Positions 35,394 through 60,413 of a stretch of 64,000 nt of DNA are shown in pieces; positions within the stretch are counted from its first letter, which is position 1; every line of letters starts with the position of its first letter. A model generated the notes under the pieces. The model searched no databases. It saw only the letters and a list, made by a program, of their open reading frames with translations, and was not told the DNA's origin. The position numbers and the translations under genes were made by a program. Source of the DNA: an uncultured Verrucomicrobiota bacterium (GTDB taxonomy: Bacteria > Verrucomicrobiota > Kiritimatiellia > CAIVKH01); the NCBI GenBank assembly GCA_937872895.1, contig CALMUP010000013.1:124001-188000 (forward strand), given 5' to 3'.

Positions 35394-35963
35394 CTACCGC
35401 ACCGGGATCATGACCTCGTTGCGGCGCAGGAACCACGGGGTGAACGGTGGATTGTAGCGGGCCCAGACGGCATCGCCGGCCGGTTCGAGTCCCTGCGCCG
35501 CCATCCAGGCGCGCAGCATGGACTCGTGTTCTACATAACGCTTATCGCTCCAGAAACCCGAGTACCGCACCACGGCCATGCGGCGTGCGGGGATCTCCTG
35601 CAACCGCACGGAGGGATTTTCGGGTTCCGGCCAGCCTTCCCGCTTCGCGTCCGCCGGCATGACGAAGGCCACCGCCCATTGCTGGCCGGTGGGCGACTGG
35701 AAAACCGGGGCGGTCATGGGGATTTCGTGACGGGTCCGGTTTTCGCCGGAGATGTAGTTAAACAGGGGGTCGAAGCCGCGGTTTCCGGCCGAGGCGCGGT
35801 CGCCTTCCACGAGGGTCTCCGCGAGGATCATGGCCGCGTAATCGCGGACCTCGAACCGTCCGTCGCGCGAGACCAGCGAGTACACCGCTTCCTCCACCGC
35901 ACCGGCTTGACGAACGAGTCCCATCACCAGCAGGGCCCCCAGGATCCATGATCGTTTCTTCAT
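35394..35963 (-). CDS. Exported SOUL-family heme-binding-like protein
   Basis: 189 residues. The signal peptide is MKKRSWILGALLVMGLVRQAGA. The remainder follows the SOUL/HEBP fold: YSLVSRDGRFEVRDYAAMILAET at the start, FDPLFNYISGENR, the PMTAPVFQSP motif, VAFVMPADAKREGWPEP, and AVVRYSGFWSDKRYVEHESMLRAWM, closing with YNPPFTPWFLRRNEVMIPV. SOUL proteins bind heme or related tetrapyrroles in some organisms; in bacteria the role is mostly untested. The ATG at 35963 is chosen because it starts the signal peptide. A TAGCTT (5-base spacing) or TATGGT (10-base spacing) box precedes it and no clear ribosome site does. It is transcribed away from a STAS-like gene. Confidence 0.87.
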   Translation of the reverse strand: MKKRSWILGALLVMGLVRQAGAVEEAVYSLVSRDGRFEVRDYAAMILAETLVEGDRASAGNRGFDPLFNYISGENRTRHEIPMTAPVFQSPTGQQWAVAFVMPADAKREGWPEPENPSVRLQEIPARRMAVVRYSGFWSDKRYVEHESMLRAWMAAQGLEPAGDAVWARYNPPFTPWFLRRNEVMIPVR

Positions 35964-35994
35964 GCCGGAAGCTACCATACTCCTTCGCGGGATT

Positions 35995-36060
35995 CCAATC
36001 GCCACCAGCGCGGAACATGCGGAAAACGGAATACGGAAAATGGAAAAAGAAATACGCGGA
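35995..36060. repeat. GGAA-rich imperfect repeat tract
   Basis: The segment carries repeated units of the form CGGAAnnnGGAA, for example GCGGAAAACGGAATACGG and then GAAAATGGAAAAAGAAATACG. Its AT content and periodicity stand out from the surrounding high-GC sequence. I recall similar tracts between genes in PVC genomes. It lies between the divergent SOUL and STAS-like genes. Confidence 0.35.
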
Positions 36061-36208
36061 AGCGTGTGGTCGCATGACTGGCGCCGCTCCTGCGTTGATT
36101 CCGGTGCGTCCTGTTTTTGCCGGGTCGGCATTGCCGGTTGGGGCGGGTGTTGGTATGTTTCCGTCCAACGGAACGGCGGTTGGGCGCGGTGTGCGCCGGG
36201 AGGTAGGC

Positions 36209-36592
36209 ATGTCCCTGGGAATCAAGGTGTATCATGTGCAGGATTTCATCCGGAAAAACGAGTCGGGGGTTATTGACGGCCCCCGGTCCTTCGAGCTGGT
36301 GCGGGAGGTCGCCACGGCGGCCTCGTTTCACATCGACAGCAACCTCCTGATCGATCTGCGGGACACCACGCTCACCATCGGCAGCTTCGAGCACATGGGC
36401 CAGCTCACCCAGGAATTCATCCGGTTGATGCCCTCGTTCTCGAACAAGATCGCGGTGCTCACGCCCGACGATCCGGAGCGGATCAAGGTGGGTGCCAAGC
36501 TGGAGCTCTGCATGCGGCTGAAGGGCATCCGGTACAGCATGTTCACCGAGTACGAGAAAGCCATCGACTGGCTCTCCAGCATCAAATCGTAA
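36209..36592 (+). CDS. Small STAS/SpoIIAA-like cytoplasmic protein
   Basis: 127 residues. The pattern is HIDSNLLIDLRDTTLTIGSF, MGQLTQEFIRLMPSFSNKIAVLTPDD, then LKGIRYSMFTEYEKAIDWLSS. It matches the alternating strand/helix layout of STAS/SEC14-like (SpoIIAA-type) proteins, in which the central LIDLR strand is followed by a segment conserved in related proteins of unknown role. There is no obvious phosphorylatable serine at the anti-sigma-antagonist position. ATG 36209 has a strong ribosome site (GGGAGG); the open frame upstream is not convincing. It is a stand-alone gene, divergent from the SOUL gene and convergent with the envelope operon. Function is unknown; lipid binding or a partner-switch role is possible. 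Confidence 0.68.
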   Translation: MSLGIKVYHVQDFIRKNESGVIDGPRSFELVREVATAASFHIDSNLLIDLRDTTLTIGSFEHMGQLTQEFIRLMPSFSNKIAVLTPDDPERIKVGAKLELCMRLKGIRYSMFTEYEKAIDWLSSIKS

Positions 36593-36650
36593 TCCGGGCG
36601 GTCGCATCCGCCCCCCCTCGTCGTCCTCAACGAAGGCCGCTGGCCATGAC

Positions 36651-36700
36651 ATGTTCCAGGCATGGGAAAAGCGGGTCGCCGTTTTGTCCAATGCCTGGAA
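36651..36700. repeat. Inverted pair of a dispersed palindromic repeat
   Basis: TTCCAGGCAT (36654-36663) and ATGCCTGGAA (36691-36700) are perfect inverted copies around 27 bases. Each lies in a smaller palindrome, the right one reading TTGTCCAATGCCTGGAA. Related units lie inside the photolyase gene at 59826-59875. Here the pair sits just past the end of the envelope operon and could also act as its terminator stem. Confidence 0.6.
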
Positions 36701-36712
36701 AAGCGATGCGGG

Positions 36713-37990
36713 TCAGGGTTTGCTGACGTCGGGTTTGACGAGGTTCTTGAGGTGGCGGAAGGTGCCGCCGTTCTTGCGGGCGAGCTGGCGCAGGAAGGCT
36801 TCGTCCTCCTCGAGGGTCTCGTAGCCGATGACGTAGATGCGCGCGGGTTTGCGCTGTTGCTCGGCGTACTGCTTCTTCTGCAGGGCGTCGATGTAGTCGA
36901 GCATGCTTTCGCGCGGCATCTCGGGCCAGCGCAGGGAGGCGACGCCGTATTCGTTCTGCACCTGGGGCGGCAGGCCGCGGCGCGCGCGTTTCTTGTTTTC
37001 CTCTTCGAGCGCTTTCTGCTCGCGCAGCTTGGCCTCCTCGACCCTCTTCATCTCCGACTCGGACCAGTATTTCTCGCGCCAGGCCGCCCACTCCTCCTCG
37101 GTGAGGTGGCGCATCAGGCGCGGCTGGCCGTCGGTGATCATGAAGATCGCGTCGGCCTGCTGGGCCATCGCGGCGGCGAGGGCGAGGTCCTGCCGGGTGG
37201 TACCGCCCTTGTCGGCGCGGCCGACCTTGTAGGTGTCGATCTCGACGGCGAGTTCGGTGTTGGCCGAGTGGGTCTCCACCTGCCCGCCCGGCGTGTTGTA
37301 GCGGGAGAGCCAGGCGATGGCGTTCTGCTTGTTGTCATTGGAGGCGAGGACGAGGTTGTCCTTGAACTGGTCGTAGCTGTGGGCGAAGGCGCCGACGTTG
37401 AAGAAGGTGCCGGGCGAGAGGCCCTTGATCAGGCGGGCGAGTTCGTCGCGCACCAGCTTGAAGCCGTTGTAGCCGCCGCGGATGTCCTCGAGCATGCTCG
37501 AGGAGACATCGACGAGGATGAACACGCGTTCGCCCTGGGCGCGCACGCCGAAGAAGTTCACCGAGGACTGCCCGAGCGACAGGCCCTCGTTGCCCTGGCC
37601 GTCGCCGAGGCCGGTGCCGATGCCGGCGCTGGCGAAGTTGACCATGCGCGGGATGTTCGGGTTCCTGATCGGGGCGACCTCGATCTTGAGGTCGGGCAGG
37701 GGCAGCTCGGAGAGGCGGTCGGCGGTGAGGCGCGGCTGGACCTGCGGGCGGCCGCTGCGTTTCTGCGTCTCCTGCACGTGGACCTTGTACTCGAGCTTGC
37801 GCGGCTCGATGGTGCGTTCGACCTCCGGCGGCGGCTCGAAGTTGACCTCGCGCCGGAAGAAGTACGAGTACAGCACGAGCGGGCTGGCCAGCAGCACGAG
37901 GCCGATGTGGAGCAGCAGGCTGAGGATGAACACGCGGTAGAGCAGCGAGCGCACCTTCAGCGGTTTGGTGGCGGCGGGGGACGGGATCAC
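36713..37990 (-). CDS. Membrane-anchored von Willebrand A domain protein in the TonB position of an ExbBD operon
   Basis: 425 residues. A single N-terminal membrane helix (~19-45) is followed by a Pro/charged linker (EPPPEVERTIEPRKLEYKV) like that of TonB or TolA. A vWA domain begins near 155 with the MIDAS motif DVSSS at 161-165 and a later MITDGQP. A charged helical insert (SESEMKRVEEAKLREQKALEEENKKRARRG) and the final ARIYVIGYETLEEDEAFLRQLARKNGGTF complete it. Domains of this type bind protein ligands through a metal ion. The GTG start overlaps the upstream exbD by 4 bp (GTGA), so synthesis is coupled. It probably replaces TonB/TolA as the moving or coupling arm in the periplasm; the partner is unknown. 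Confidence 0.85.
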   Translation of the reverse strand: MIPSPAATKPLKVRSLLYRVFILSLLLHIGLVLLASPLVLYSYFFRREVNFEPPPEVERTIEPRKLEYKVHVQETQKRSGRPQVQPRLTADRLSELPLPDLKIEVAPIRNPNIPRMVNFASAGIGTGLGDGQGNEGLSLGQSSVNFFGVRAQGERVFILVDVSSSMLEDIRGGYNGFKLVRDELARLIKGLSPGTFFNVGAFAHSYDQFKDNLVLASNDNKQNAIAWLSRYNTPGGQVETHSANTELAVEIDTYKVGRADKGGTTRQDLALAAAMAQQADAIFMITDGQPRLMRHLTEEEWAAWREKYWSESEMKRVEEAKLREQKALEEENKKRARRGLPPQVQNEYGVASLRWPEMPRESMLDYIDALQKKQYAEQQRKPARIYVIGYETLEEDEAFLRQLARKNGGTFRHLKNLVKPDVSKP

Positions 37991-58456: not shown

Positions 58457-58861
58457 ATGATGGCTTGGTTGGAACAGGGTTCGTGGTGCCTGCTGCGCGT
58501 CGCGTCGGGCTTGATGATGGCGACGCATGGCTACGGGAAGATCTTCGAGGAGGGCCGCATGGAGCGGTTCACCGCCGGGGTGGGCGAGATGGGATTCCCG
58601 CTGCCGGGCCTGTTCGCCTGGCTGGCCGCGTTGTCGGAACTGGTCGGCGGCATCGCGCTCGCCCTCGGCCTCGGCTCGCGGGTCAGCGCCGCGCTGATCG
58701 CCGGCACGATGTTCGTCGCCGCGTTCATCCGCCACGGCGGCGATCCCTTCGAGAAAAAGGAACTGGCCCTGCTCTACCTCGTGGTCATGCTGTTCTTCGC
58801 CGTCTGGGGCGGGGGACGGTGGGCGCTCGACCGGGTGCTGGGCCGGAACCGTTCAGCCTAG
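58457..58861 (+). CDS. DoxX-family membrane protein
   Basis: 134 residues with four hydrophobic helices: [57 protein letters not shown] and [17 protein letters not shown]. The phrase [16 protein letters not shown] with the later [17 protein letters not shown] is the DoxX signature. Members sit in the inner membrane and are linked to thiol or sulfur oxidation stress in some bacteria. The ribosome site AGGAAGG precedes the ATG; a second ATG follows immediately. The 3' end overlaps the convergent photolyase gene by 9 bp. Confidence 0.88.
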
Positions 58862-60370
58862 CGGGAGATCAAGCTGTGCGCTTGCGCGGGGAGGGGATGC
58901 CCGTCGGCGCGCCGGGCGTTTGCGGCTGCCGTGCTCCTGGTACACGCGGCGCGCTTCCTCGCGGTGTTCCTCGCTGCGGCGCAGTGCGGCAAATGCGGCA
59001 CGCGCGCGACGCACTGCCTCGGCATGATCGACGACGGGCGGGGGATAGGCGCGCGGCGGCGACGCGACCTTCCACGGCGTATGGATCTCCGCGTTGGCCA
59101 GGTCGCGCAGCTCCGGCACCCAGCGGCGGATGAAGTCGCCCGACGGATCGTGGTCCATGCCCTGCTTCACCGGATTGTACATGCGCAAGGTGTTGATCCC
59201 GGTCACCCCGCTCTGCATCTGCAACTGGCTGATGTGGATGCCGGGCTCGTAGTCGATGAACTGGCAGGCGAGGAAGTCGCGCAGGTCCCGCCAGTCGAGC
59301 CACAGGTCGTACGCCGCGAACGAGACGAGCATCGCCCGCATCCGGAAGTTGATCCACCCGCGCGCCTGCAACGACCGCATGCAGGCATCGACGAACGGAT
59401 ACCCGGTGCGGCCCTCGCGCCATGCGGCCAGCCGTTCCGGATAGGCCCCCGGTTCGCGCAGCGATTCGCACGCGCGGTTGAAGCACCGTTCCTCGATGGC
59501 CGGCTCGGCCTCGAGTTTCTGGATGAAGTGGCAATGCCAGTGCAACCGTGCATCGAGCGCACGCAGGTCGGCCTTGCGCAACGCCTGCGGGGCCATCCGT
59601 TCGCGCCGCAACCGCTGCACCACCGTCCGCATGGACACCGCACCCCATGCGAGGTAGGGGCTCAGCCGCGAGCACCGGTGGTACGCGGTGACCGGACTGC
59701 TCATCGCCTGCTGGTAACCGATGCCGCGCCCGCCGAGGAATTCCTCGAACCAGCGCCAACCCTCGGTCGATCCGCCGCGCAGATCCGGCGCGCGCCGTAC
59801 CGGCGCGGCCACACGCGAAGGAAGGTCCAGGGACTGGACAACCACCGCGGGCGGGGTTCCAGGGATTGGACAACCGGGGGCGATCGCCTCCGGCGCCGGC
59901 GTGACCGGCTCGGCCATGAAGGCCTCCCAGCGCGCCTGCCACCGGTCGCGGTCGACCTTGCCGCGCCCGACCCCGTACTTCGGCAGCTCCGTCCACGCCA
60001 CGCCGCGGTTCCGGGCCCACGCCGCCACCGCGCGGTCGCGCGCAAAGGTCCGCTCCACCCCGGTCTCCTGGTGCGACCACAGGTGGGTGAAGCCGGTCTC
60101 GCGGTGCAGCGCCTCCAGCACCTCCACCGCCTCGCCGTGACGCGTCAGCAAACCCGCGCCCCGTTCCCGCAGCGCGGCGTCGAGTTCGGTCAGGCAGGCG
60201 ACGATGAAGCCGGCGTGCAGGGCATCGCTGTCAGGTGCGCCCAGGATCGACGGCTCCGCGATGTACAGGGGGATGACCCGGCCTCGGCGCGCAGCCTCGG
60301 CGAGCGGACGGTGGTCGTCGATGCGCAGGTCGCGCTTGAACCAGACGACATGGAGGTCACGGGACGGCAT
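58853..60370 (-). CDS. FAD-dependent DNA photolyase / cryptochrome
   Basis: 505 residues. The antenna domain starts [17 protein letters not shown] with [14 protein letters not shown]. The FAD-binding helical domain includes [45 protein letters not shown], and [51 protein letters not shown]. This set marks the FAD photolyase family, which repairs UV pyrimidine dimers with light; it looks closest to proteins annotated as deoxyribodipyrimidine photolyase-like. The linker ([27 protein letters not shown]) is encoded by two copies of a palindromic repeat, an apparent in-frame insertion. The start at 60370 has a TACCGT box five bases ahead and no ribosome site. Confidence 0.9.
59826..59875. repeat. 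Two palindromic repeat units inside the photolyase linker
   Basis: On the minus strand GGTTGTCCAATCCCTGGAAC (59876-59857) and GGTTGTCCAGTCCCTGGACC (59844-59825) are near-identical, 13 bases apart, and each is palindromic (TCCA-N5-TGGA). They match the units at 36651-36700. They stay in frame and encode the linker between the two photolyase domains. Confidence 0.65.
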
Positions 60371-60375
60371 GCCCC

Positions 60376-60381
60376 ACGGTA
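60376..60381 (-). promoter_or_regulatory. Putative leaderless -10 box (TACCGT)
   Basis: On the minus strand TACCGT ends five bases before the photolyase ATG at 60370, without a ribosome-binding motif. Confidence 0.35.
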
Positions 60382-60413
60382 CGCCGTCCCGGACGAAGTG
60401 CAACCGGCGTCGG

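Follow-up and report, generated by a model that had tools for sequence, protein, structure and literature searches.

The photolyase gene of an uncultured Kiritimatiellia bacterium, situated in a stretch of 64 kb that was analyzed as a whole (hereafter, the window), carries two near-identical palindromic units between its Pfam domains DNA_photolyase and FAD_binding_7. The question raised by this locus is whether the repeat entered the gene as a mobile, REP-like element inserted in frame where the protein is flexible, as the initial annotation had read it, or whether the DNA is kept there for another reason. When TTGTCCAATnCCTGGAA was scanned over the window with up to three mismatches allowed, four matches were found versus 0.18 expected by chance, and none of 100 shuffles reached four, so the proposed excess over chance is borne out. 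Two of the TCCA-N5-TGGA units lie within the photolyase interdomain linker and the other two, as matches on opposite strands, in a convergent intergenic gap, both as first described (Table 1). What had been overlooked is the pairing: at both places, the second unit starts exactly 32 bp after the first (59826/59858 and 36655/36687), and this distance is the genome-wide signature of the family. The elements are helically phased palindrome pairs and not insertions, and their DNA is kept even within genes.

Table 1. Coordinates of motif matches, dyads, and genes. Positions without a prefix are those of the window; G000 is the window's own genome.
Feature	Position	Strand	Sequence or remark
TTGTCCAATnCCTGGAA match	36654-36670	-	2 mismatches
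TTGTCCAATnCCTGGAA match	36684-36700	+	0 mismatches
TTGTCCAATnCCTGGAA match	59825-59841	-	2 mismatches
TTGTCCAATnCCTGGAA match	59857-59873	-	0 mismatches
Convergent intergenic gap with the second pair	36593-36712		120 bp, between ORF 35948-36592 (+) and ORF 36713-37990 (-)
Intergenic pair, dyad unit 1	36655-36667		TCCAGGCATGGGA, one mismatch to TCCAN5TGGA
Intergenic pair, dyad unit 2	36687-36699		TCCAATGCCTGGA, 32 bp from unit 1
Photolyase ORF (DNA_photolyase and FAD_binding_7)	58853-60403	-	interdomain linker holds the coding pair
Coding pair, dyad unit 1 (photolyase linker)	59826-59838		TCCAGGGACTGGA
Coding pair, spacer	59839-59857		19 bp; spacers as a class hold little information except A/T beside the dyads
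Coding pair, dyad unit 2	59858-59870		TCCAGGGATTGGA, 32 bp from unit 1
Coding pair in genome coordinates	G000:C13:183826-183870
NadE locus of the own genome	G000:C5:127103-128752		pair in interdomain linker

The motif was counted in the window's own genome (G000, 3.87 Mb), with the same pattern read backwards as a control. TCCAN5TGGA occurs 227 times versus 107 for the control; for the paired form, TCCAN5TGGA-N19-TCCAN5TGGA, the counts are 64 (exact) and 77 (one mismatch), versus none for the control. Since the 64 pairs take up 128 of the 227 units, the unpaired ones (~99) are at background level, and the notion of a dispersed family holds genome-wide, far above chance. Stretches sampled from four genomes show units separated by 31-33 bp and multiples of these, with rare exceptions. 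Within the arrays of one relative (G021), distances of 31, 32, 63, 94, and 126 bp give a mean period of ~31.5 bp, i.e., three turns of 10.5 bp. Information is near maximal in both dyads and near background in the spacer, except for the bases adjoining the dyads. A scan of the own genome over all arm sequences, gaps, and spacings yielded no other phased dyads that stand out, and none of any dialect was found in 200 kb sampled from G018, a nearly closed, motif-free genome. The two N5s of a pair show no preference for being reverse complements, and in two genomes they are less so than shuffled ones (3.32 mismatches versus 2.92 in G000, 2.12 versus 1.53 in G021). This speaks against stem-loop formation by the two units, and an RNA hairpin or terminator made of them was rejected. 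Separately, a 5.4-kb contig of the own genome holds two pairs with near-identical spacers 314 bp apart (G000:C18:487-531 and 801-845), which suggests a local tandem duplication.

The insertion reading takes the photolyase linker for an added segment, and the alignments do not agree with this. Between conserved blocks, the linker measures 34 aa versus 41 and 32 aa in two site-free orthologues (63% and 54% identity to the window's photolyase), and the alignment with the E. coli photolyase shows no insertion at the pair site. (A second, distant photolyase-type gene of the own genome, G000:C28:48449-49840, with best stretches of 28-34% identity, has a counterpart in the congener G001, a genome in which nothing close to the photolyase of the window was found.) Further coding pairs are located at residues 244-259 of NadE, at residues 94-109 of BioD, and in the C-terminal part of BioA, and a comparison with solved homologous structures revealed no added residues at the pair site in any of the three. 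The genes bioD and bioA lie on separate contigs of the own genome (G000:C8 and G000:C9), each with its intragenic pair. The tolerance of the motif where the protein is flexible therefore stands insofar as pairs do occur in flexible linkers, but they were not inserted there, as the proteins are no longer than their site-free homologues.

The most informative case is the interdomain linker of NadE, which could be read in 20 genomes, five of them with a pair at exactly 32 bp (G000, G001, G003, G005, and G007). The stretch between fixed motifs spans 87-127 aa with the pair (n = 5) and 79-124 aa without it (n = 15). In addition, the offset of the pair varies: an SKxW...PxxGxF-like peptide is encoded in G001, G005, and G007, and other frames are used in the own genome and G003. 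Given that the pair stands in different frames and that site-free linkers are equally long, retention acts on the DNA, and what is kept in the NadE linker is the DNA motif, not the peptide. We consider this case decisive against insertion; a repeat within a linker is not necessarily an insertion, and the mistake is an easy one to make. Protein linkers of this kind provide a natural example of selection acting at the DNA level within coding sequence, for which the Kiritimatiellia NadE linkers are a good test case.

A REP-like or MITE-like mobile repeat, inserting both intergenically and in frame in flexible linkers, would nevertheless account for several traits of the family. REPs are likewise dispersed palindromes, mostly extragenic and some of them intragenic, including in repair genes (PMC3733652); one relative, G003, carries as many as 1,440 pairs; and G003 and G021 include some near-identical spacers, more similar than column shuffles, so that part of the copies in these two genomes arose by copying. 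However, the outer tags that mark the GTAG and CGTC families of REPs do not exceed background in G000, G003, G013, and G021, and the link to RAYT transposases is missing as well: no pair lies in any of 10 Y1-transposase loci, of which three are from pair-rich genomes, and Y1 matches are unrelated to pair numbers (86 Y1 versus 14 pairs in G035, 3 versus 1,440 in G003, and none versus 36-48 in G011, G021, and G028). The 86 matches of G035, a genome of 4.8 Mb, compare with 0-21 in the other relatives. Moreover, spacers are not conserved in most genomes, paired units lack the complementarity of a stem-loop, the coding copies (photolyase, NadE, BioD, and BioA) have no added length, and sites of differing dialect occupy the same places in different genera. 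Thus, neither "mobile" nor "REP-like" describes the family, and we regard the mobile repeat as a very unlikely explanation.

Exact pairs are present in 22 of the 38 genomes compared (the own genome and relatives). Their number in pair-bearing genomes of the window's family ranges from 3 to 1,440, with 1,440 in G003, 373 in G013, 94 in G007, 83 in G001, 36-48 in G011, G021, and G028, and 14 in G035; most genomes having sites hold tens of pairs, the typical density being about one pair per 30-60 kb. With a stricter pattern applied to 289 genomes of the phylum, every match fell within the window's class, Kiritimatiellia, and none outside. In a named genome collection, the titles among the matches listed were all those of Kiritimatiellia-type MAGs, which are labeled Kiritimatiellae, Verrucomicrobia, Lentisphaerae, or just "uncultured bacterium". 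The dyad comprises 13-15 bp, TTCCA-N5-TGGAA plus genome-specific dialects, the inner five bases being ATCCC/AGGAT in the own genome, ATCAT in G003, AGCCT in G013, and AACAT in G021, with a central CAT...ATG dialect in G002 and G006; G005 and G007, although of the same genus as G006, have CAA...TTG instead. It is a genome signature of class-wide range, definable by sequence alone, and a natural case of site families that switch dialect between related genomes; a search of the open-access literature for the motif strings or for palindromes in Kiritimatiellia returned nothing relevant.

Lineage dialects bring to mind the DNA uptake sequences (DUS), tags of self-DNA for natural transformation that are kept by biased uptake. 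The DUS of Neisseriaceae also differ in dialect between related genomes, occupy permissive intergenic and intragenic places, and reach 2,245-5,918 copies in the genomes cited (PMC3630211); the copy number of G003 is likewise high. In contrast, most site-bearing genomes hold tens of pairs rather than thousands of single words, and the symmetrical pair at a fixed helical distance is unlike known DUS. An uptake sequence is therefore quite unlikely in our assessment.

Gene context was obtained from the stretches around sites with a simple gene finder and covers 50 of the 64 pairs of the own genome. Although coding sequence makes up 86-90% of the DNA, most pairs are intergenic, and predicted genes are overlapped by 8 of the 50, a few of these gene calls being doubtful; the placement first sketched, mostly between genes and also in flexible coding linkers, is thus supported. 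Pairs are found in 24 of 52 convergent gaps versus 72 of 298 other gaps (pooled p 0.002), and often lie 2-40 bp after a stop codon. Both observations would suit a protein roadblock, terminator, or insulator at the ends of transcription units. Such a function is, however, very improbable, considering that stem-loop complementarity between the units is not kept, that about a quarter of the pairs lie in divergent gaps, and that other sites are located in the middle of genes (photolyase, NadE, and BioD), where expression would suffer.

Divergent gaps show no enrichment of pairs, which, set against that of convergent gaps, also bears on whether the sites are operators or enhancers of a transcription factor, e.g., a sigma-54 activator. 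The sites of such activators can be about three turns apart. Dyad geometry and cooperative spacing are in line with this possibility, as are the pairs directly upstream of conserved genes, namely an aroE-like gene (own genome and G003) and a dapA-like gene (own genome and G021). On the other hand, gene interiors and gene ends account for many of the sites, a single genome can carry as many as 1,440 pairs, and sigma-54-like promoters within 350 bp of pairs numbered 14 versus ~17 expected over the sets, so that the sigma-54 enhancer was rejected for lack of enrichment. We hold operators or enhancers as a class to be unlikely.

The places themselves recur between genomes. Sites were projected from one genome to another via translated alignments, and in 32 of 108 comparisons a pair lay no more than 150 bp from the position thus obtained, versus a mean of 4.3 and a maximum of 14 in 2,000 runs of random placement within the same loci; as both directions of comparison are counted and the loci were partly fetched because of their sites, these numbers serve as supporting evidence and not as a rate. 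In clear examples, G005 and G007 both have a pair downstream of tsf, and the own genome and G006, which use different dialects, have one at a common place.

Taken with the phasing, this placement leads us to favor, with modest confidence, cooperative docking sites of a putative lineage-specific protein that would act chromosome-wide. The element would be a pair, sometimes an array, of dyads with centers 32 (31-33) bp apart, equal to three helical turns. Each dyad would be bound by a homodimer of a putative sequence-specific DNA-binding protein, and the two dimers, aligned along one helical face, would bind cooperatively as a dimer of dimers that could extend along arrays; we infer this from the symmetrical half-sites, the variable center, the three-turn phasing, and the arrays. 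Sites would be placed where harm is small, i.e., in convergent and other intergenic gaps and in variable protein linkers, and the photolyase copy would be a site written in the codons of a tolerant linker rather than an inserted element. Since the sites are apparently kept by selection on the DNA, a chromosome-wide function is most likely, and not control of neighboring genes; such a role fits sites that are indifferent to promoters, use convergent gaps and permissive linkers, and in G007 are spread along 1.4 Mb. Most likely, this would be the organization or maintenance of the nucleoid, as for the site families of Noc, SlmA, and MatP, whose scatter over the chromosome without a tie to promoters is shared by the present sites. 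It would not be universal in the class, because the copy number varies from 0 to 1,440.

Noc of B. subtilis has ~70 sites with a 14-bp palindromic consensus, SlmA of E. coli has 24-52 sites and binds as a dimer of dimers, and the sites of both are depleted near the terminus (PMC4726725). Of the known kinds, these dozens of short dispersed palindromes, each read by a sequence-specific dimer, are the closest in number and form, as DUS are in dialects and placement and REPs in appearance. Here, unlike for Noc and SlmA, the palindromes are paired at 32 bp, reach 1,440 pairs, and are restricted, in the genomes surveyed, to Kiritimatiellia. A terminus gap was not seen on the one contig examined, G007 C1, along whose 1.4 Mb (33 clusters; a contig and not a closed chromosome) pair density shows no trend. 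Regular spacing of pairs is absent along G007 and weak in G003 and G013 (CV below the null at the ~5% level).

Regarding the binding protein, ParB is chromosomal and essentially single-copy in every genome, with or without sites. In copy-number comparisons, no consistent extra ParB/Noc-type paralogue was found in site-rich genomes and counts of Fis-type HTH proteins do not track the sites; on these counts, neither candidate is favored as the binder. Likewise, no recurrent gene lies beside the longest arrays. The two dyads at 32 bp are themselves a ready bait for the putative protein. More tentatively, and as a possibility we would put somewhat below even, the family may belong to a Kiritimatiellia-confined chromosome organizer, in which a putative dimeric protein other than a Noc-type ParB paralogue would form short cooperative filaments on phased dyads, its specificity having changed repeatedly with all sites following, as the dialects suggest. 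Phased pairs were also seen in five IMG/VR viral contigs, one in each and with phage-like gene neighborhoods, which may represent phages or proviruses of Kiritimatiellia.
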